Positions 3,546-14,194 of a DNA stretch of 24,611 nucleotides are shown here, one piece after another. Source of the stretch: a virus; the IMG/VR virus record IMGVR_UViG_3300006224_000037, positions 1 through 24,611 of that record, one strand, 5' to 3'. Made by a program: the position numbers and the translations under genes. How positions within the stretch are numbered: position 1 is the stretch's first letter; the number at the start of each line of letters is the position of its first letter. Under the pieces are notes generated by a model. That model was not told where the DNA came from, did no database searches, and saw only the letters and a program-made list of their open reading frames with translations.

Positions 3546-4043
3546 TTACGGTTCGCCCATGAGCAGGTAGTGGACTCCGAAGTTGAGGGCCGTGATGATG
3601 AGGGCCATGAGGATGTAGCCGACCTTGGAGCCGACCATCCACATCAGCCAGACTTGCTTCGACTCCTCGCGCTCCTTGCGGTAGTCCTTGCTCTCCTTGT
3701 CATCCTTGCGTCGCGGCTTGGCTACAGAGGCGACGTAGGCAGCGTGCGTCTCATGGTGCTCGGTCGTCGACCGCCTGACCGCCTCGCTGATAGCGTTCTC
3801 GATGACGTGCGGGCAGTTGTCCTCGGTGCGCGCGATCTTGTCCTCCACCTTCTGGATGCGGGAGTCGCGTACCGACGCTTCTTTGAGGTGCTTGTTGACG
3901 ATGCCGACCACCTCGTCGTGCTTCTCGTCCATGTCGTCAGCGAGCCCCTGGAGCGCCTCGAGAAGGTCGAGCGGCTTCGGCCCGCCGTTCTCGGCGGTGC
4001 GCCTGAGAATGTCGTCCTTGGCCTTCTCGAAGTGGTCGGCCAT
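3546..4043 (-). CDS. coiled-coil protein with C-terminal membrane helix (XhlA/holin-accessory-like), 165 aa
   Basis: The N-terminal two thirds are highly charged and helical (residues about 5-75 and 85-130), with heptad-like spacing in GLADDMDEKHDEVVGIVNKH and SRIQKVEDKIARTED that suggests a coiled coil. A single hydrophobic segment lies at about 140-160 (SKVGYILMALIITALNFGVH). This order, soluble coiled coil then C-terminal anchor, resembles XhlA-type hemolysin/holin-associated proteins of Gram-positive phages, though it is about twice their usual length. Its position directly after the tail genes and before the lysis genes fits. The ATG (4041-4043) overlaps the preceding TAA by one base. 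No sequence-specific motif confirms the assignment. Confidence 0.5.
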   Translation of the reverse strand: MADHFEKAKDDILRRTAENGGPKPLDLLEALQGLADDMDEKHDEVVGIVNKHLKEASVRDSRIQKVEDKIARTEDNCPHVIENAISEAVRRSTTEHHETHAAYVASVAKPRRKDDKESKDYRKEREESKQVWLMWMVGSKVGYILMALIITALNFGVHYLLMGEP

Positions 4044-5770
4044 TACTTCTTGCTCCTCCAGCCGCGCCGGCGGTGCTTGGCGAGCTTGATCGTCCTGATG
4101 GCGCCGGCGGCCTCGAGTTGCTCGATGAGCGCGTCGGCCCCGAGGCCGAGTTCGAGATCCACCGTCTCGCTATCGACATCGACGTGCGAGCGCACCACGT
4201 AGAGCGGCCCGCAGAGCGACTGCTCGCACCACACCCAGTCGCCGCCCCTGATGTAGGGCACCGGCCTCCACTCCGAGGGCGTGTCCCAGCGGTGGACTTC
4301 AAGCTGCTTCAGTTGACAGGTGCCGCTCGAGAGTCCGGTGCCGAGGTGGCGGGCCAGCCGGTCGGCGTTCCTGCCGGCGGCCTCGACGGAGTAGTTGTGG
4401 CCGCTGAAATCGACCGCAAGGACGCGCGCCGTGGTGCCCATGAAGGGCGAACCCTGGCCCCAGCCGGGAGTCTTGGGACGGATCACCGTGTCGGGGAAGC
4501 CGGCAGGGTAGTTGCTGCGCCCGAGGCGCCCGTACTGGAAGCGCAGCGCCTTGTAGTTGCCCTCCTCGTCGGGATGCTGACGCACGTCCCAGACCGTCCC
4601 CGGCTCGGTGGCGTCGATGGCGTAGCAGTTGTCGAGCACCTGGATGGAGGTCGGGTCGGTGAGCAGCGGTCTGGCAACGAAGCGGAACTTGGAGCCGGCG
4701 CTGTAGTAGCTGAACCAGCCCCACTCGACCAGCACCGAAGCCTGCTGGGCGATCGTGTTCATGGCGCTCACGGGATCGGTCATCGGGCGGGCGACGAGGC
4801 TCTGGAGGACGCTGCCCACGGTCGAGGTCAGTTCGCTGTCGTGGAGGTCGATGAACTGGGCGATGGCGAGCAGCGCCTCATCGACGGTCTTCTCGTTTGT
4901 GCTCGTGTAAAGCTCGACGTTGTCGATGCTGACGAAGCGGTCGGCGGTGACCGTCTGACCTTTGCTGTTCGTCGTCCATAGCTGGAGCGTGATGTAGCCG
5001 GGGTTGTCGCCAACGCCACCTACGGGCTCGTCAAACGGATATCCGTTGAGGACGGTGCCGGCGTCCCAGGTGTGGATCTCGTTGTACGCCGAGTCGGCAG
5101 GGTTGCGCTCGACCGTGTAGTCCGTAGACCACGCCAGCCGCGCCCTCATGTTCTCCTTCAGGTTGCAGGTGATGTTGCCCCTGATGCGCTTGACACCGTT
5201 CATCAGGCCGGTGGGCTTCTTCATGTAGGTGGCGCCCTCGTAGAGCAGGTAGCCGATCATCGCCGCCCGCGGCGTGTCGTCGGGGCCGCGCGGCACCTTG
5301 GTGCCGTCCTCGGCGCGGATCTCGATGACGTCGCTGATGTCGATCGAGGCCCACTTGCCGTTGCGCTTGTTCTCGAACCACTGGTCAGGGTCTGAGTCGG
5401 TGAAGACGAAGCCGCAGTCCTGGCGCCAGCGGGCGACCTCGAGGACGCCGCCGCACTCGATGCCGAGCACCTTCTTCTCGCCGGCGTAGCCGGTGCGCGG
5501 ATCGTTGATGATGAAGCCCTTGTAAAGCTGCGTCGTGACGGCGTCGAGGGTGTGCGTCACATCGATGGTGGCGCCGACCTTGAGTTCCGTCCACTGGGAG
5601 CGCGGGCTGAACGGGTCAGCGGGATCCATCCAGAACGAGGCCGCGCCGTCACCCTGGTTCGTGCTGTCGAACTCGAGCCCGTGGACGACGTCACGGCGCT
5701 CGACGCCGCCGATCTTGACCGAGAGGCCGCCGTCCTTGAGGCCGACGTAGTTGGTGCCGTGGATGCTCAC
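4043..5770 (-). CDS. minor tail protein, probably hub-like, 575 aa
   Basis: The 575-aa protein lies in the tail-tip block after the large fibre. Its start (SVKIGGVERRDVVHGLEF) and its C-terminal segment (IRGGDWVWCEQSLCGPLYVV then VDVDSETVDLELGLGADAL) match the general layout of siphophage hub or tail-associated proteins. There, an N-terminal beta domain and a C-terminal coordinate-transform-like beta domain flank a variable middle. The centre (residues about 180-280) contains a beta-rich insert (ITLQLWTTNSKGQTVTADRF, VSIDNVELYT) resembling a carbohydrate-binding jelly roll. Start is GTG at 5768-5770, overlapping the 48-aa gene as GTGA. The end is basic (KHRRRGWRSKK). No peptidase motif was seen. 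The hub label is inference from position and shape. Confidence 0.6.
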   Translation of the reverse strand: MSIHGTNYVGLKDGGLSVKIGGVERRDVVHGLEFDSTNQGDGAASFWMDPADPFSPRSQWTELKVGATIDVTHTLDAVTTQLYKGFIINDPRTGYAGEKKVLGIECGGVLEVARWRQDCGFVFTDSDPDQWFENKRNGKWASIDISDVIEIRAEDGTKVPRGPDDTPRAAMIGYLLYEGATYMKKPTGLMNGVKRIRGNITCNLKENMRARLAWSTDYTVERNPADSAYNEIHTWDAGTVLNGYPFDEPVGGVGDNPGYITLQLWTTNSKGQTVTADRFVSIDNVELYTSTNEKTVDEALLAIAQFIDLHDSELTSTVGSVLQSLVARPMTDPVSAMNTIAQQASVLVEWGWFSYYSAGSKFRFVARPLLTDPTSIQVLDNCYAIDATEPGTVWDVRQHPDEEGNYKALRFQYGRLGRSNYPAGFPDTVIRPKTPGWGQGSPFMGTTARVLAVDFSGHNYSVEAAGRNADRLARHLGTGLSSGTCQLKQLEVHRWDTPSEWRPVPYIRGGDWVWCEQSLCGPLYVVRSHVDVDSETVDLELGLGADALIEQLEAAGAIRTIKLAKHRRRGWRSKK

Positions 5771-5916: not shown

Positions 5917-8900
5917 TTAGCTCCCCAGCGTCATGGTCACGTAGTACCACGTCGAGCCGTTCCGCAGATACAGCCTCGGCGTCGTGTCAGGGCCGAAGTA
6001 CATCTTCCAGCGGCTGCCGACCGTGTCTTTGTCCTGAATCCAGATGCCGTCATCGGAAGTACCGCTCGACCAGTTGTCTCCCGGCTTCAATGCGCCGTAC
6101 GTCTTGACAGTAGTGGTGTCCGCGTCTATGTCAACGCCTATAGTTTCTGAGTTGTTGCCCAGCCAGACACGGTTGGCTCCAGCATCCATGAGCAGATATG
6201 GGTTACTGGTAGAGCCAAGCTTTATTTCTGCGGTCTGAGTCCCGATTAGTTCGATGTAATCGGACTGCGACTTCACCCTTGTGACACCACTCGTGTAGCC
6301 GATTAGCGAAAGGTTCGCTGAAAGCCCGCTCGTATATACGATGGGGCCGCTCAGTGTGAGATACGCTTCCGAAGTTTGCGAGTCGGTGACTATCGTCCCT
6401 TGAGTATCCTCTGAAGCGTGTCCGGTGTAGAAGTCAATCTGACTTCTGTTCGCCGTGAGAATCTCGATGCGCTCGCCGCTCGTCTCGGTCTTGAAGATGC
6501 CGCCAGTGATTGTCTGGCCGTTGATAGTCCCGCCGTCGAGCACGTCGCAGGAGATGCCGGTCGCGTCTAGATGCTCCGTCGTGATGGTGCCGTCAACGAT
6601 GAGTTCCCCGAGAAGCCTGCGGCGCAGGAACATCTCGTCCACGTAGAGGTAGTTCGCGGAGCCGATATCGGTCGTCTCAAGCTGAATCTGGATGTAGGCC
6701 GCGCCGTCCGCTCCGACTGTCGCTGGGATGTCGTACCACGGGTTGTCGCTGCCGTCCTTGACCTTGAAGATGGTCGTCCCGTAGCTCGCCGCCGTGACAT
6801 CGTCAGTGGCGACCGTCTCGATGACCGTAGACTTGTCCTGCTTGTAGCAGAGCAGCTTGACGCGCCCCGAGCCGACCGCGCTGCCGAGGCGGGCGCGGCA
6901 CTCGAAGTAGTAGCTCTCGTCGGGGAGCACCGGGATGAACGGCGTCAGGATGGCGCTCGTCGTGCCCGTGGTCACGCCGATGAGGCGGCGGCACTTGCTG
7001 CCCGCGTAGGCGTTGGTGGTCGTCACGCAGCGGAACTCGTAGTCGCTCGCCGTCGAGGTCGTGTCGCGGTTGCCTGGGTCAAGCTCGCTGTTCGGGTTCG
7101 GCATCAGGTTGTCGAAGGAGCCGATGAACATGCTGCGCGACATCAGGGAGTCGGCGGCAATCTCCGTCGCCCCGATGGCGCCGGCGGCGATCATCCCGGC
7201 GGTGATGCTGTTGCCGATGATGGTGTTGCCGCTGATGACGCCGCTCATCTCGCCGGCATCGACCATCGGTGACCATGCGTCGGCCTCCAGCGACCGCTTC
7301 GTGTTCCAGTGATGGACGAGATCGGTGGCGTAGTAGCCCTCGCCGGTCGGCCCTACCTTGAAGTTCTGCACAATCTGAGCGAGCGTCAGGGCGGCGCTGT
7401 AGACGCGCACGCAGGCGATGTCGCCGTCCCAGTATCCACCACCGGCGCCGACGCCGTGTCGCCCGATGAGACTCGTGTCGGTAGCGTTGAAGGTGCCGCC
7501 CGCCACGGTGTCGGAGTCGGCCAGCACGCCGTCCATGTAGACCTTCTGCGTCGAGCCGTCACAGGTCGCGACGTAGTGGTGCCAGTTGCCGTCGTCGCAG
7601 CCCCAGTCGCCGCTCGGCATCGAGGTCACGGTGGCAGAGGAGTCCTTCTGGATGGTGACGGGACGCAGGCCGCTGGAGGTGCCGAGGCCGCAATACTGCG
7701 TCCCTGAATCCCAACCGTGCCAGATGATGTAGCCGGTATGGGCACAGTCGGTCGTATTACGCGCCCAACCCTCCAGCGTGTAGACCTTGTCGTTCGTCTC
7801 AGTGATAGCCGTGAGGTCTACATGGTCGTCAACGTAGTCGAAGGCGAGGCAGTACGGGTCTGCCCCGGTGCCGGTGCCCTTCCAGCCGCTCGCGGTGGTG
7901 TAGGCGAAGCCGTCGAGGGTGCCGTTGTTGGTGCCGACGAGGTCGTACCACGTACCCTTGTTGGTGTGCGTGTTCGTGTTCGGCCCGCCGCCGCTGTTGC
8001 GGTAGAGCCTCCGGTCGGTGGTCAGGAAGACCATCGTCCCGACTGGGAACTCTTCAGCGGGTGGCGTCTCGGGCAGGGTAGGCAGCGTGTCCACCACGAC
8101 CGGTGGCCTGATACCGGCGGCGAACATCTTCATCGAGTTGATGGCCTCTTCGGCGATCTCGTCGGCCACCGTCATCAGGGCGACACCGGAGACGATGTTG
8201 CTCATCGCGGAGCGGTTGCCGAAGACGTCCACCGTCTTGACGCCGTAGTACTTGGTGCCGTCCGCGTAGTCCTGCTTGATGGTCATCACGGTCGCTCCGG
8301 TGACGGCGATGACTATGGTCGGCGTGGGTGTAGCGCCGCCGTAGACCTCGTAGGTCACGGGGCTGGCCGAGGCGACCTCGTCCCAGAACAAGGTGACGTG
8401 GCCGATGCCGGGGACGATACGCAGGTTGGTCGGCGTGGCGAGGTAGGTGAAATCGTTGCCAGCGCCAGGGTCAGTGGCCGTACCGGAGGGACTGCTGACG
8501 AGGATATCGACGGTATTGTTGGCGACCGGCCCTTCGGGTGCGTAGGCGCGGATCGTCTCGTCACTGAGGACGGTGAAGGCGGCGTCGTAGGACACGACGG
8601 GAGAGCGAGTGTTGAAGGTGACCGAGTTCGCGGTCGCGAAGTAGTCGCCCGTGATGGTGACGATGGTGTTCACCGTGCCGCCCGTGGGCGAGATGCTGGT
8701 GACGACCGGGACGTCCACCTCGGGGTAGGTGAAGTCGTTGGCCGTGCCGGGGTCGGCGCTGCGCCCGTAGGAGTTCTCGACATCGACCTCGACCTCGCCG
8801 CCACCGGGTGGGGCGATTGCCGTGACTTGGGTGTCGGAGTCGATGGTGAACGAGGGTGAGGGCACGTCACCGAACCAGACCACGAAGGTGGTCGCGAACT

Positions 8901-9276
8901 TCGTCCCGGTGATGACGACGCTGTCACCACCGCGCCCGTCCTCGTAGGCACTTTGGGTCGGGACGATGCCCGTGACCGTGGGAGCAGAACCTCCGGTGCC
9001 GCCGGGGCCGCCGATGTAGGTCGCGTAGTCCCAGCCCGAGGTCAGCGTCCCGGTGCCGTCGCCGTTCTTGACCGTGACGTTGAGGTCGGTGCCGGTGCCT
9101 GACGGGACGTAGGCGATGAGATCCGTCTCGGAGACGACGACGAAGTTGGTGCCGACGTCGTAGGTGCCGAACTTGACCTCGTAGACGTCCTCGCCGAAGT
9201 TGCTCCCGGTGATGACGACTTGGGTGCCGGGAGGGCCACTGCCGGGGTTGATGCCGGTGACGGTCGGAGTAGCCAT
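5917..9276 (-). CDS. large tail fibre/receptor-binding protein with IPT/TIG, FN3-like and LamG domains, 1119 aa
   Basis: Domains in order: three IPT/TIG Ig-like domains at about residues 1-87, 99-188 and 190-282, each with the PTVTGI(N/V)P start and VVITGxxF core; an FN3-like domain at about 283-370 (PTNLRIVPGIGHVTLFWDEV); a linker with FPVGTMVFLTTDRRLYRNSG; a LamG/concanavalin-like domain at about 433-655 (YVDDHVDLTAI, DDGNWHHYVATCDGSTQKVY, GDIACVRVYSAALT); a spacer of short repeats of the type found near host-specificity protein ends (ISGNTIIGNSITAGMIAAGA); a second jelly-roll-like domain at about 720-880 (YYFECRARLGS, YIQIQLETTDIGSANYLYVD); and a C-terminal beta-helix-like region. It would form the adhesin of the tail tip and bind surface polysaccharide. 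ATG 9274-9276 overlaps the preceding stop (TGATG). The C-terminal coding DNA is clearly lower in GC than its neighbours. Confidence 0.82.
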   Translation of the reverse strand: MATPTVTGINPGSGPPGTQVVITGSNFGEDVYEVKFGTYDVGTNFVVVSETDLIAYVPSGTGTDLNVTVKNGDGTGTLTSGWDYATYIGGPGGTGGSAPTVTGIVPTQSAYEDGRGGDSVVITGTKFATTFVVWFGDVPSPSFTIDSDTQVTAIAPPGGGEVEVDVENSYGRSADPGTANDFTYPEVDVPVVTSISPTGGTVNTIVTITGDYFATANSVTFNTRSPVVSYDAAFTVLSDETIRAYAPEGPVANNTVDILVSSPSGTATDPGAGNDFTYLATPTNLRIVPGIGHVTLFWDEVASASPVTYEVYGGATPTPTIVIAVTGATVMTIKQDYADGTKYYGVKTVDVFGNRSAMSNIVSGVALMTVADEIAEEAINSMKMFAAGIRPPVVVDTLPTLPETPPAEEFPVGTMVFLTTDRRLYRNSGGGPNTNTHTNKGTWYDLVGTNNGTLDGFAYTTASGWKGTGTGADPYCLAFDYVDDHVDLTAITETNDKVYTLEGWARNTTDCAHTGYIIWHGWDSGTQYCGLGTSSGLRPVTIQKDSSATVTSMPSGDWGCDDGNWHHYVATCDGSTQKVYMDGVLADSDTVAGGTFNATDTSLIGRHGVGAGGGYWDGDIACVRVYSAALTLAQIVQNFKVGPTGEGYYATDLVHHWNTKRSLEADAWSPMVDAGEMSGVISGNTIIGNSITAGMIAAGAIGATEIAADSLMSRSMFIGSFDNLMPNPNSELDPGNRDTTSTASDYEFRCVTTTNAYAGSKCRRLIGVTTGTTSAILTPFIPVLPDESYYFECRARLGSAVGSGRVKLLCYKQDKSTVIETVATDDVTAASYGTTIFKVKDGSDNPWYDIPATVGADGAAYIQIQLETTDIGSANYLYVDEMFLRRRLLGELIVDGTITTEHLDATGISCDVLDGGTINGQTITGGIFKTETSGERIEILTANRSQIDFYTGHASEDTQGTIVTDSQTSEAYLTLSGPIVYTSGLSANLSLIGYTSGVTRVKSQSDYIELIGTQTAEIKLGSTSNPYLLMDAGANRVWLGNNSETIGVDIDADTTTVKTYGALKPGDNWSSGTSDDGIWIQDKDTVGSRWKMYFGPDTTPRLYLRNGSTWYYVTMTLGS

Positions 9277-10889
9277 CAGGGCTCCCTCATCAGGACGAGC
9301 GTGAAGTAGGCGTGGAAGCCAAGCTGGTAGAGCGGATCGCGCTCGATGGTCACGGGCCTCGATGAGCGCACGATGTTGTAGGACTCATCGATGCCGATGG
9401 TCAGCGTGTTCGTCTGCTTGTCCACCTCAGTCCAGAGGTCGAGCAGCTTGGTGTCGAGGTCGGCGAGGTCGGCGCCCTTGACGCGCATCGGGATGGTGAC
9501 CGGCACGAGGCCACTGTGATGCACGTTGACCTGGGCATTGGCGACCGAGGAGGCGTACGAGGGCGCCTCCTCCCAGACCGTCTGGCGCTGGCCGGTGCTG
9601 ACGCCGGTGCCGTCCACGAAGTAGTTGACCTGATCGTTGAGTTCCATGTTGCCGAGTATCACACTTGCGGTGCTCGCTACTGGCTCCTCGCTCTGGAACT
9701 CCCAGATCTCGGTCATCGTCTTCGGCGTGATGCCCTTGCCGTCGATGTAGTCGAGGAGGTCGAGGTAGTCGTCCTCCGTCCAGTCGTAGGCGCCGGGGCT
9801 GGGGATGAGGTCTTCGACCTCGATGAAGAGGGCGCCGCCGCGGGCGACCGCGGTATCGACCGCCGCCTCGGCCGTCGCCAGCGTGACGGTGTTGCCGAGG
9901 AAGAGCACGGGCAGGTTGTAGACCGCGTCGAAGGGCATCGCGTTGGCGGTGTTCTCTGATCCCGAACTGGAGCGCACCGTGAGCAGGATGCGGTGCGCGG
10001 CGAGCACCTCGTGGATCTCGGGGGCCGTCGCCCGCCAGGAGTTGACGCCCAAGAGGAAGCGGAACGGCCCCCAGCCGTAGTAGCCGGCGTAGGTCATGTA
10101 GTAGTCGAGCACGGCGTGCTGGATGCGGCCGTCGTAGCGCGTGTAGGCCGTGTGCGACCACGTCGGATCGAGCAGTTCGAGTTGTGCCAGTTCCCCGAGC
10201 AGTTCCCAGCCCATGTTCCTGAGCATCTCGTACTCGCCGGCCGTCATCCGATCCGCGTCGTCCATGCTGAACAGGTCGATCGGCAGGTTCGCCTTCCAGC
10301 CCTTGTCCTCGAGGGCCGGCAGCGCCGTCAGGGGGCCGTGCTTGGCGTTGCCGAACATCAGCACCACGGCGGGCGTCGTCGTCACGCCGCCCGTGAGCGA
10401 GTCGAAGTAGACCGAGGGCGCGGCGCCCGTCCACTGCGGGGTGAGGCCGACGCGCAGGCGCAGCATCGTGTTGCTCCACGACTCGCTGCCGGTGTTCGTC
10501 CAGTCGGACTCTGCGACGTGGATGCGGTTCCAGCCGTCGTGGAGGTTGGTGACGGTCTGGAACTTGAACGACTTCGAGAAGTCGGTGGTCGAGGACACCT
10601 CGATGGTCACCTTGGAGATGCCGTTCGGCCCCGCGGCGTTGAGGCTCGCGTAGCAGGCGAGTTCGATGCCGCTCTTGTCGCCGCTCATGTCGCGCGAGAT
10701 GGTCTTGGTCGCGTAGTAGGTGGTGCCCGAGGCGCCGGTCGTCCCGAGGGCGAGGCGCAGGGAGAGCTTGCCGACCGTCTCCGACACCCAGGCGAGCGCC
10801 TTGCTCAGGCCGCTGTCGAGCGTCCAGTCGGTGTCGTCGGTGAAGTCCTCGAAGACCGTCCCCTCGGTGATGATGCAAGGAGGGGTCAC
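9276..10889 (-). CDS. enlarged distal-tail paralogue with degenerate polysaccharide-deacetylase-like domain, 537 aa
   Basis: Three parts are visible. Residues about 8-170 are a beta-sandwich with a DGWNRIHVAESDW core and a YFDSL strand, like a carbohydrate-binding module. Residues about 173-400 follow the NodB/polysaccharide deacetylase plan, but the catalytic positions differ: the TFDDG motif is LMFGNAKHG (177-185), the GHExxxH motif is GWELLGEL (227-234), and the late LxHDI motif is LFIEVEDLI. The PFRFLLG and LLDYIDGKGITPKTMTEIWE segments keep the fold's skeleton. Residues about 408-537 are a paralogue of the 129-aa protein encoded just upstream. Deacetylation is therefore unlikely; glycan binding is the better guess. 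The GTG start (10887-10889) directly follows the preceding TAA. Confidence 0.62.
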   Translation of the reverse strand: MTPPCIITEGTVFEDFTDDTDWTLDSGLSKALAWVSETVGKLSLRLALGTTGASGTTYYATKTISRDMSGDKSGIELACYASLNAAGPNGISKVTIEVSSTTDFSKSFKFQTVTNLHDGWNRIHVAESDWTNTGSESWSNTMLRLRVGLTPQWTGAAPSVYFDSLTGGVTTTPAVVLMFGNAKHGPLTALPALEDKGWKANLPIDLFSMDDADRMTAGEYEMLRNMGWELLGELAQLELLDPTWSHTAYTRYDGRIQHAVLDYYMTYAGYYGWGPFRFLLGVNSWRATAPEIHEVLAAHRILLTVRSSSGSENTANAMPFDAVYNLPVLFLGNTVTLATAEAAVDTAVARGGALFIEVEDLIPSPGAYDWTEDDYLDLLDYIDGKGITPKTMTEIWEFQSEEPVASTASVILGNMELNDQVNYFVDGTGVSTGQRQTVWEEAPSYASSVANAQVNVHHSGLVPVTIPMRVKGADLADLDTKLLDLWTEVDKQTNTLTIGIDESYNIVRSSRPVTIERDPLYQLGFHAYFTLVLMREP

Positions 10890-11279
10890 TTACGGCGTCC
10901 TCATCAGCACCAGCGTGAAACGAGCGTAGAAGCCGAGTTGGAACTGGGGATCGCGCTCGATCGTCTCGGGGCGCGTCGAGTAGACGATGTCGAAGCTCTC
11001 GGAGTCCCAGGTGAGGGTGTTCGAGGACTTGTCCACCTCCACCCAGAGCGCCGCCAGCTTGGAGAGCAGATCGGAGACGGAGGAGCCCTTGACCATCATC
11101 GGGATGCTGATCGGGATGAGCGCCTTCTGGACGTGGACGTTGACCTGAGCGTTGGCCGCGCCGGTGTAGTTGGGCACCTCCTCCCAGGTGGTCTGCGGCT
11201 CCGAGAGGTTGACGCCCTCGTTGAGGACGAAGTAGTTGACCTTGTCGTTGAGGCCGAGCGTGCCCAGCGTGATCGCCAT
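10890..11279 (-). CDS. distal tail protein-like (Dit-type), 129 aa
   Basis: This compact protein follows the tape measure gene directly, the usual place of the distal tail component that caps the tube and anchors the tip. It shows the expected plan: an N-terminal strand LGTLGLNDKVNYFV, a central ANAQVNVHV and IPISIPMMVKG region, an amphipathic helix SDLLSKLAALWVEVDK, and a final TIERDPQFQLGFYARFTLVL strand pair. More than half the residues are identical by eye to the C-terminal 130 residues of the 537-aa protein encoded next. The ATG (11277-11279) overlaps the tape measure TGA by one base. Whether this copy or its enlarged neighbour forms the tail-end ring cannot be told from sequence. Confidence 0.65.
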   Translation of the reverse strand: MAITLGTLGLNDKVNYFVLNEGVNLSEPQTTWEEVPNYTGAANAQVNVHVQKALIPISIPMMVKGSSVSDLLSKLAALWVEVDKSSNTLTWDSESFDIVYSTRPETIERDPQFQLGFYARFTLVLMRTP

Positions 11280-14194
11280 CAGAGGTGCGCCCTTCCGCGC
11301 TCACGGCGCCGCTGCGCGAGCCGCGTGCCGTGCTCGATGTAGGGGCGCATCGTGCTCCCGAACCGCTCGAGGTCGCTGACGACGACGCCCTGCGGCAGCG
11401 TCATGTGGTTGTGGTAGTGGACTTCGGCGGGGCCGGCGGCAACGACCGCCTGCCGCGGCTCCTTGACGCCCGAGACGGTGGGCCGCTGCTCGATGTACTT
11501 CGAGAGGCCCGAGGCGGCCAGTAGCTGCGCCGCCCTGTTGGGCTTGGTCAGCGGGATGATGACCTCGGGGCCTTCCTCGCCCACGAGGGTCACCTTCGGC
11601 TTGGTGTAGATGCCGCCCCAGGCGTCTCTATCGATGGGCGTCTTGCTGGTCGTGATGGCGATATTGACCACGCTGGGGATGGACTGGATGCTGCTGATGA
11701 CGCTCTGGACGCCCGCGTCGAAGTCAGTCGTGTCGAGGCCGACCGCCGGCTTGACGGTGCGATCACTGAGCTTCGTGAGTTGCGTGTTGGCGTTCTTGAG
11801 CGCCGCATCGAGCTTGTCCTTCTTGGCCTTGAGTTCGGTAGTCCACCCAGTCCTCTTTGCCCGCGCGCTGATGCGCTCGATCTCGCCCTCGATTTCATTG
11901 ATGCCCTTCTTGACGCGCTCCTTCCTGACCTCGATGGTCAGTTCGCGCGTCCTGGTGACATCGTTGATCCACTTGTTCATGCGGTTGATGTCGCCCTTGA
12001 AGTCCTTGTCGGCGAAGTCGATCTTCGGCGGCTTGACCTTCGGAAGACCCTTCTGGATGAGCCCCCAGTTGAAGAGGATCTGCTGCTTGGGCGTCATGTC
12101 GGCGAGGAACTTCGCCTTCTCGGTGCGTGACATCGCCTTCCAGGTGATGGGGATCTTGGGCGGTGGCATGACCTTCTCGAAGATATCGGTGATCTTCATC
12201 GCCTGAAGCGTGAGTTGTTTCTGCGAGACGTCGGGCATGATGTGCGCCGCGATGGGCAGGCCGATGTCGCCGGCCCCGGTCGCCCCGCTCTTGATCTGAT
12301 CCGCGATGGATTCCCAGTACTCCGCGCCGTGAGCCGGGGCGATGTTGATCTTCCAGCGGTCGTCGTCCTTGACGTAGTCGCTCAGGGAGTAGAGTTCGTA
12401 CCACGCATCGACGGCATCGACGGTCAGCACGATCTTGCCCTCGTCCTTGAGACGATTGATGCGCTCGCGCACCGCAGGGAGGTCAGTGTCCTTGGCGATG
12501 ATCCTGATGGGGATATCGACCTTGCTCTCTTTGGCCGTCTTCTTGATGCGAGCAATCATGTCCTCGAAGGCTGGCGGGCCTTCGTCCATCTGCTGCTTCC
12601 ACTTACGGAAGGCGAGGCCACCGACGAGGCCGACGCCGGCGGCGGCAGCGATGGCACCGAAGGCCGCCACGGCGGTCGTACCGAAGATCTTCGTCGCCAG
12701 ACTGGCGCCACCCACTGCCCCGGTGTACTGCGAGTAGTAGCGCGTCTGGAGGATGCGCTGGAGCGTCGAGGCGGCCATCACGTTGTTGGCCGCCTTGGTC
12801 GCTGCGGCGCGCGTGCCGGTCGCGCCGGCGACCGCAGCCTCTGAGGCCGCGACCGCGCTGTTCGAGGCCACGAGCGTGGCGTTGCTCGCCGTCTCGACCG
12901 CAGATGCCGCGACGGCGGCAGCGCGCTTCACCGCGATGAGGCCGATGGCGCGCATGACCGAGCCGGCGACAGAGAGCAGGGGCATCATCGCCGCCGTGAT
13001 GGCGAGGAAGCCCACCGTCACCTTCTGCATCGTCGGAGAGAGCTTCTCGAAGACGCCGACGAGGTCGCCGAACCACGTCACCAACTTGGTCACCAGCGGC
13101 AGGACGACGGCGCCGACCTCGATGAAGGCGCTTTTCAGCGTATTGAGGGCGCGGTTGAACTTGGCGACGTCGCTCTGGGCGGCCGTCCTGTACGTCTCGT
13201 TGAGCTTGCCCTGCGAGTCGCTGACGCGCTCGATGATCTCCAGGTTCTTCTCGTAGTTCGCCCCGAGGAGGCTCATCACGCCGGTGGTCGCGCGCACGTT
13301 GGGGATGATCTTCCGCAACGAGAGCATGTTGTGGTCGGTCGCCTCCCAGAGCATCTTCAACGTCGGCAGGAGCCCCTTCTCGGCGATCGACTTGGTGACT
13401 TCCTGGTAGGTCAGGCCGAGCGTCTTCAGTTCATCGATGCTCATCTTCGCCGGCGAGACGAGGGCGACCATCGTGCCGCGCAGGGCGGTCACGGCCTCGG
13501 CGCTGGAGAGGCCGCCGAGGGTCAGGGCGGCGACGTTGCCGCCGAGTTCCTCGAGGCCGACCTTGAGTTGGTTGGCGATCGGCATGATGCGCCCGAGCGA
13601 GGAGGCCAGCGCCGTAGGCTCGGCCTTGCCGACCTCGATGGTACGCATGAGGATGTCCATCGCCTGGGTGGCGTTGTACGTCTCGTGGCCGTAGCTGTTC
13701 ATGGCGCTGGTCACGACGTCGGCCAGCGTGGTGATGTCGCCCATGCCGGCGACGCTCGCCTTCATCGAGACGCGCAGGGCGTTCATCGCCTCCTTGGCGT
13801 CGAGGCCCGAGGAGGCGAGGAAGTAGAAGGCTTCAGCCGCGGCCTGCGGCCCGCCGACGTTGCCGATCTCGGCCGACGCGGCGCGGATCTCGTCGCTGAA
13901 GCGTGCCGCCTGATCGGCCGAGAGGCCGGTCAGGTTCTGCACCTGGATCATCGCCTTCTGATACTGGTATGAGGCGTAGGTCGCATACCCAAGACCGGCG
14001 ACGACGGGCAGCGTGTAGTACTGCGTCATCGTGCGGCCGACGTTCTGCATGGCGAGGCCGGTCTTGCCGAGGGTGCGCTCGACACCCTTCGCCATCGAGG
14101 CGGTCTTGGCGTTCGTCTCCGCGACGCCCTTGGACACCCCGGTGGTGTCCATCGTCGTGCGGATGATGAGTTCGCCGTAGAAGCTTGCGGCCAT
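11279..14194 (-). CDS. tape measure protein, 971 aa
   Basis: This is one of the two longest genes in the window and sits directly after the frameshifted chaperone pair, as in other siphophages. Residues about 60-310 fit the TP901-type phage tail tape measure domain (QVQNLTGLSADQAARFSDEI, the LASSLGRIMPIANQLKVGLE segment, and AEAVTALRGTMVAL). Hydrophobic stretches lie at about 390-420 (VGFLAITAAMMPLLSVAGSV) and about 505-525 (AVAAFGAIAAAAGVGLVGGL). The distal third has a charged coiled coil (about 760-830), then a beta-rich tail with GEEGPEVIIPLTKPNRA, a motif common near tape measure ends. The basic C-terminus is QRRRERGRAHL. Using the usual 1.5 angstrom per residue, it predicts a tail of roughly 145 nm. 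No peptidoglycan hydrolase domain was seen. The ATG (14192-14194) overlaps the chaperone stop (TGATG). Confidence 0.92.
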   Translation of the reverse strand: MAASFYGELIIRTTMDTTGVSKGVAETNAKTASMAKGVERTLGKTGLAMQNVGRTMTQYYTLPVVAGLGYATYASYQYQKAMIQVQNLTGLSADQAARFSDEIRAASAEIGNVGGPQAAAEAFYFLASSGLDAKEAMNALRVSMKASVAGMGDITTLADVVTSAMNSYGHETYNATQAMDILMRTIEVGKAEPTALASSLGRIMPIANQLKVGLEELGGNVAALTLGGLSSAEAVTALRGTMVALVSPAKMSIDELKTLGLTYQEVTKSIAEKGLLPTLKMLWEATDHNMLSLRKIIPNVRATTGVMSLLGANYEKNLEIIERVSDSQGKLNETYRTAAQSDVAKFNRALNTLKSAFIEVGAVVLPLVTKLVTWFGDLVGVFEKLSPTMQKVTVGFLAITAAMMPLLSVAGSVMRAIGLIAVKRAAAVAASAVETASNATLVASNSAVAASEAAVAGATGTRAAATKAANNVMAASTLQRILQTRYYSQYTGAVGGASLATKIFGTTAVAAFGAIAAAAGVGLVGGLAFRKWKQQMDEGPPAFEDMIARIKKTAKESKVDIPIRIIAKDTDLPAVRERINRLKDEGKIVLTVDAVDAWYELYSLSDYVKDDDRWKINIAPAHGAEYWESIADQIKSGATGAGDIGLPIAAHIMPDVSQKQLTLQAMKITDIFEKVMPPPKIPITWKAMSRTEKAKFLADMTPKQQILFNWGLIQKGLPKVKPPKIDFADKDFKGDINRMNKWINDVTRTRELTIEVRKERVKKGINEIEGEIERISARAKRTGWTTELKAKKDKLDAALKNANTQLTKLSDRTVKPAVGLDTTDFDAGVQSVISSIQSIPSVVNIAITTSKTPIDRDAWGGIYTKPKVTLVGEEGPEVIIPLTKPNRAAQLLAASGLSKYIEQRPTVSGVKEPRQAVVAAGPAEVHYHNHMTLPQGVVVSDLERFGSTMRPYIEHGTRLAQRRRERGRAHL

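Follow-up and report, generated by a model that had tools for sequence, protein, structure and literature searches.

This study concerns two adjacent genes of an uncultured phage, in a virus record of 24,611 bases (IMGVR_UViG_3300006224_000037), the whole of which is called the window here. The genes encode proteins of 129 and 537 amino acids (aa). Both open reading frames lie on the minus strand, at the coordinates given by a sequence-only reading of this DNA, and the gene order on that strand is the tape measure gene, the 129-aa gene, the 537-aa gene, the gene of a 1119-aa protein with TIG repeats and a lectin domain, a gap, and the gene of a 575-aa protein. A contig of 49 kb, IMGVR_UViG_3300033485_000021, is identical to the window (100%) over at least 12 kb. 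The 129-aa protein recurs as a domain at the C-terminal end of the 537-aa protein, while the N-terminal part of the latter combines a jelly roll resembling a carbohydrate-binding module (CBM) with a domain of the CE4/NodB deacetylase fold that has lost catalytic residues. Phage tail parts are often said to be derived from enzymes, and the transition is seldom visible. The two genes suggest such a case, in which an enzyme would have turned into a sugar-gripping part.

The two copies of the 129-aa domain were compared by BLASTP, which aligns residues 409-537 of the long copy with residues 2-129 of the short copy, with 75 of 130 positions identical (58%, E 3e-47). At the DNA level, identity between them is 71.9% over 366 bp. 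The sequence-only reading had claimed a duplication with more than half of the residues identical and had listed ANAQVNVH, TIERDP and FTLVLMR as shared segments, and both statements hold. Furthermore, the same two-gene arrangement is found in an independent contig (L003, IMGVR_UViG_3300032053_000212), where part of a tape measure gene is followed by a short copy of 141 aa, a long copy of 555 aa and then a homologue of the TIG protein. Recurrence of the pair means that it is neither an assembly artefact nor a chance similarity, and both possibilities were rejected. The long copies of the window and L003 are 41-43% identical end to end, with 46.5% in the jelly roll, 35.2% in the NodB domain and 53.5% in the repeated domain, and both keep open frames, which may be counted in favour of selection for a non-enzymatic form. 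In another contig, L005, a single copy of 131 aa has its end abutting the homologue of the TIG gene, with no long copy between them. Apart from L003 and L005, no relatives of the 129-aa domain were found in phage records, bacterial genomes, Pfam, PHROGs, NCBIfam or the PDB.

The N-terminal cassette of the long copy is overlooked by automated annotation, as the 537-aa protein alone gave nothing significant in Pfam, PHROGs or a PDB sequence search, and direct tblastn against phages returned no match. The connection came through the L003 long copy, which has a weak tblastn match (E 1e-3) to gp36 of Arthrobacter phage Gorpy, annotated "glucosaminyl deacetylase". The cassette formed by a jelly roll and a CE4 domain, that of Gorpy gp36 included, is present in 65 phage records, mostly of Gordonia phages, and is often annotated as a minor tail protein. 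A profile of nine cassette proteins, built without the window, retrieved the window protein in hmmsearch with E 1e-13 and the L003 protein with E 9e-10 (both at a database size of 1000), with 0 hits among 400 shuffled sequences, and hhalign gave E 1.4e-13. Moreover, both domains were detected separately with profiles made from 17 active relatives, a term used here for proteins that are motif-intact by sequence. The NodB-only profile matched the window protein with E 3.2e-16 against E 46 for the best of 900 shuffles, so a chance resemblance to NodB was rejected; it also matched all three of the motif-lacking modules described below (E 1e-17 to 3e-16 and 5e-20). The jelly-roll-only profile likewise matched the window protein (Table 1). 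In these domain profiles the rows had been co-aligned with the window before the active ones were cut out, a small circularity that is absent from the nine-protein profile.

Structural comparison leads to the same assignment. An AlphaFold2 model of the 537-aa protein obtained with 15 aligned sequences has a pLDDT of 70.3; an earlier model based on two sequences (pLDDT 39) was discarded. Among solved structures, the turret head of Haloferax tailed virus 1 (HFTV1) is the best match to both domains, covering residues 8-399 of the model (Foldseek E 6.6e-15; VIA Z 21.2 over 343 residues). CE4 enzymes and the CE4 pseudoenzyme BA3943 match the region of residues about 171-400, and CBM11 is matched as well (Table 1). 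By fold search and by profile, the domain has the CE4 (beta/alpha) barrel fold, and the CBM jelly roll directly precedes it, as in cassettes of the HFTV1 turret head type. The beta-sandwich and NodB-like fold that had been proposed from the letters of the second copy are therefore supported, and residues 173-400 do yield deacetylase matches in Foldseek, VIA and profile searches. A recent acquisition showing as a GC anomaly was rejected, GC being 0.67 in the CBM/NodB part and 0.63-0.66 around it.

The roles of the CE4 residues were assigned according to established knowledge of the family (PMC4505593). Both Asp of the pair, together with the first and the late His, are kept in 17/17 active relatives. 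In the window protein, motif 1 (TFDDG, with the catalytic and the metal Asp) has become Gly180-Asn181 at the Asp pair, motif 2 (the H-x3-5-H metal histidines) is without its first His, His246 being possibly the second, and the late catalytic His of the LxH motif is replaced by Glu359. The ligands of the Zn site, as they occur in the HFTV1 turret head, are lost. Two further modules belong to the same group: L003 has Tyr-Asp (SFYDT) and L039 has Ala-Asp (MSADT) at the Asp pair, both are without the first His, and the late His site is occupied by Gln and Cys, respectively. None of the three modules retains the first Asp, the first His or the late His; an Asp is still found at the metal position in L003 and L039, but not in the window protein. 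At the curated cut-off, the Pfam family PF01522 hits every active relative among the 20 aligned proteins (17) and leaves out just the three modules. All of the altered motifs that the sequence-only reading had pointed out (MFGNA, GWELLGEL and FIEVEDLI) are present, and its conclusion that the metal-binding and catalytic residues are lost is upheld, with no intact Asp-His-His site remaining, though His246 may be a leftover. Having lost the catalytic Asp, the metal Asp and the first and late His, the CE4 domain of the window should not deacetylate. As a side observation, gp30 of Arthrobacter phage Phrank15 (L012:4326-5777), annotated "glucosaminyl deacetylase", has RIDHG in place of TFDDG and keeps the other His motifs; its jelly-roll-like part is C-terminal.

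Table 1 Features of the locus, with positions in the window, and the evidence for each
Feature	Position	Strand	Evidence or remark
Tape measure protein	11279..14194	-	PHROG 991 E 1e-52 and others; PF10145 E 3e-23; directly upstream of the pair
Short copy, 129 aa, ATG start, directly after the tape measure gene (Dit by position)	10890..11279	-	58% identity to the end of the long copy; no family match
Long copy, 537 aa, GTG start: CBM-like jelly roll, motif-lacking CE4/NodB domain and second copy of the 129-aa domain	9276..10889	-	BLASTP, model, fold search, profiles
CBM-like jelly roll, residues 6-171	10377..10874	-	VIA Z 13.1 to CBM11 (6r31/6r3m); profile of active phage relatives E 2.5e-15
CE4/NodB-fold domain, residues 172-400	9690..10376	-	VIA Z 11.8-14.7 to solved CE4 enzymes, Z 13.2 to a CE4 pseudoenzyme; profile E 3.2e-16
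MFGNA (178-182)	10344..10358	-	Active relatives: (T/S)(F/Y)DD; both Asp replaced by Gly-Asn
GWELLGEL (227-234)	10188..10211	-	Active relatives: GW(E)xGxHxxxxxH or GNHTxxH; first His lost
FIEVEDLI (355-362)	9804..9827	-	Active relatives: (F/I/L)HD(L/I); His replaced by Glu359
Second copy of the 129-aa domain, residues 409-537, presumed virion anchor	9276..9665	-	58% identity to the short copy
GATGAGG near the end of the short copy, within Leu-Met-Arg codons; likely ribosome-binding site for the long copy	10899..10905	-	Sequence; predicted function
GATGAGG near the end of the long copy; likely ribosome-binding site for the TIG/lectin gene	9285..9291	-	Sequence; predicted function
1119-aa protein, TIG repeats and concanavalin-like lectin domain, directly downstream	5917..9276	-	PF01833 E 1.5e-27; PF13385 E 5e-17

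Further along the strand, the 575-aa protein (4043-5770) occupies the tail-hub position. Its sole match is in L003, with none significant in Pfam, PHROGs or phage records.

A tree of the modules splits the three motif-lacking sequences from all motif-intact ones, with an ultrafast bootstrap (UFBoot) of 98, or 97 without the motif columns, and L038 is the motif-intact sequence closest to the motif-lacking group. L038:4056-5846 is an open reading frame of 596 aa in which an intact CBM-CE4 cassette (PF01522 E 6e-22) is in frame with a head-tail adaptor domain (PHROG 442 E 2e-15), and its N-terminus is nearly identical to that of the window protein (MTAPCVINAGTIIEDF). Judged by these matches, it is a deacetylase cassette fused to a neck protein, and the cassette joins the N-termini of different virion proteins. 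In L039:3966-5240, the motif-lacking cassette follows the gene of a major head protein (PHROG 1005 E 8e-53) at a distance of two genes and does not follow a tape measure gene; this contig ends inside the cassette gene, the C-terminal partner lying beyond the contig end. The neighbouring capsid genes of L039 and the grouping of the motif-lacking sequences make it probable that the loss of catalysis preceded the fusion to the tail protein or happened independently of it. L039 was not accepted as proof of loss before fusion and is taken as supportive, given that its contig ends inside the gene and that an alternative tree, with L038 joined to the window and L003, is disfavoured and not rejected by the approximately unbiased test (p-AU 0.065). 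The sequence-only reading had assumed that the gene was duplicated, then received an insertion and then lost catalysis. The duplication stands, but this order is unlikely in view of the module tree and the position of L039 near capsid genes, and the supposed insertion is an N-terminal fusion to the second copy.

The tree of the repeated domain, proposed earlier as a check, was computed as well. Within it, the short and long copies of the window pair as sisters (bootstrap 99), and a branching order of the kind that one old duplication would leave is rejected (p-AU 0.0017), with informative sites that are few (6, 2 and 3). Taken at face value, this topology would speak for independent duplications and fusions in the two phages, in place of one old event followed by homogenisation. 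We find such a history doubtful, since the CBM-NodB parts of the window and L003 long copies are collinear, pair as sisters in the tree of the modules (UFBoot 99-100) and share the same fusion point, and the informative sites behind the rejected tree are so few. Homology of the fused modules makes it simpler to assume that the copies evolved in concert or underwent conversion.

Taken together, we think it rather probable that the pair is an arrangement like that of an evolved Dit (distal tail protein) built by duplication, in which a CBM and pseudo-CE4 module would grip host glycans without cutting them. The tail-tip structural gene that follows the tape measure gene would be present in two tandem copies, the first being the bare structural domain and the second bearing, fused at its N-terminus, a virion cassette in which a carbohydrate-binding jelly roll is joined to a CE4/NodB domain. 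By analogy with the HFTV1 turret head and with evolved Dits that carry CBMs, the repeated domain of the second copy would fix the cassette to the tail tip or within it, and host surface polysaccharide would be gripped at first adsorption by the jelly roll, perhaps with a contribution of the emptied CE4 groove. Its role would thus be the adhesion of an evolved Dit minus the cutting step. What we infer is that the long copy sits at the tail tip, assembles with the first copy, binds glycans and lacks activity; of these points, glycan binding would be the second-weakest link of the explanation. Furthermore, CTGATGAGG closes both copies; it lies inside Leu-Met-Arg codons, 8-9 bases ahead of the next start codon, and resembles a ribosome-binding site contained in the repeated domain; if so, duplication would carry its own translation signal for the next gene.

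Several observations weigh against this explanation, and the first of them bear on the nature of the 129-aa domain. It has no match to Dit families in Pfam, PHROGs, NCBIfam or the PDB, and hhalign finds no similarity to lambda gpM or TP901-1 ORF46. Nor does hhalign find similarity to the tail tube protein of the window itself, and in the AlphaFold2 model residues 460-510 reach a pLDDT of only about 70-86. The Dit identity put forward by the sequence-only reading is consequently not confirmed by any family, PDB or profile comparison. The domain is encoded by the first structural gene after the tape measure in the window, L003 and L005, as a Dit would be, and this position is the sole basis of the label, which is the weakest link of the argument. 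The repeated domain might instead be a general virion adaptor, with the long copy placed elsewhere on the virion than at the tail tip. Such a location would agree with the missing Dit match and with the relatives of the module, which are found near capsid genes (L039), on a head-tail adaptor (L038) and on the capsid (HFTV1). We nevertheless consider it quite unlikely, since the gene stands between the tape measure and the TIG/lectin gene in both the window and L003, and the single copy of L005 occupies the same place.

The other adverse points concern the NodB part, which is the least conserved domain between the long copies and is modelled with low confidence at residues 236-251, 271-289 and 305-325, as well as His246, a possible leftover second His or metal ligand in a low-confidence part of the model. 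The CE4 domain could be a passive relic or spacer, whose fold is kept for packing against a jelly roll that alone binds. Conservation of 35% in NodB, against 46% and 54% in the other domains, is in line with this, and the residues at the first Asp differ among the three modules (G, Y, A), which fits relaxed constraint. On the other hand, a phage with a compact genome would be expected to trim some 230 aa that serve no function, and the NodB profile still matches each of the three modules strongly; a spacer is thus an alternative to be taken seriously, although an unlikely one. It is far less probable that the CE4 domain retains a metal-dependent or other enzymatic activity through rearranged ligands such as His246. 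The segment SHT (245-247), common to the window and L003, does align with the second His of NHTNSHT in the active L038, and the Asp at the metal position persists in L003 and L039, but such an activity would have to do without the catalytic Asp and the first and late His in all three modules, and in the window without the metal Asp as well.

The explanation of an evolved-Dit-like pair may be part of a broader picture, which we put forward tentatively and regard as possible more than probable. A mobile CBM and CE4 cassette might spread among phages by N-terminal fusion to multimeric virion connectors, such as the head-tail adaptor of L038 and the duplicated tail-tip protein of the window, one lineage of it having become a pure glycan-binding pseudoenzyme, and the bare and cassette copies might co-assemble in one mixed ring and evolve in concert. 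If this were true, such co-assembly would tune the number of adhesion arms per virion. The active sister L038, the three motif-lacking modules and the phage with a single unfused copy can be compared side by side, so that the order of catalytic loss, fusion and duplication becomes readable and testable.

For the turret head of HFTV1, its authors have suggested that host glycans are bound by the CBM and modified by the CE4 part, which bears Zn (PMC12494034). This protein, gp31 (PDB 8QPG), has the same order of CBM then CE4 and the same fold as the window protein. It differs in that its CE4 domain has a Zn site and that it stands on the capsid with a trimeric stalk, whereas in the window protein the site is lost and the anchor is the C-terminal second copy of the tail-gene domain. 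Moreover, the N-terminal stalk of HFTV1 sits in the capsid turret base, while the jelly roll of the window protein starts near residue 6 and the extra domain is C-terminal. The same two-domain cassette is found in actinophage deacetylases and minor tail proteins (Arthrobacter Gorpy gp36, Gordonia Eyre gp26 and Forza gp90, and others), often in virion gene clusters. In the nine that were aligned, both Asp of the pair are kept, as are the first and the late His, and none of these phage proteins has the 129-aa domain. The deacetylase "minor tail proteins" of bacterial phages and the turret head of the archaeal HFTV1 are thereby linked as one virion cassette, which can be retained without catalytic residues. 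A bacterial counterpart is BA3943 of Bacillus anthracis (PDB 7bkf), called a pseudoenzyme in its title, which resembles the window domain in its CE4 fold (Z 13.2); it is without the jelly roll and tail-gene domains and is compared here by fold match alone.

Evolved Dits that carry CBMs aid the adsorption of skunaviruses to exopolysaccharide-bearing cells (PMC10688798). The evolved Dits of lactococcal skunaviruses and of phage J-1 (CBM2, PDB 5ly8) share with the window a carbohydrate-binding domain on the first structural protein after the tape measure. In these, the CBM is inserted in the Dit itself, encoded by a single gene, whereas in the window the gene is duplicated, the fusion is N-terminal on the second copy and includes a CE4 fold, and the protein is a Dit by position. 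What would combine here is adhesion like that of an evolved Dit with the virion CBM-CE4 cassette, on a duplicated gene whose product may be a tail ring, and with the catalytic residues lost.

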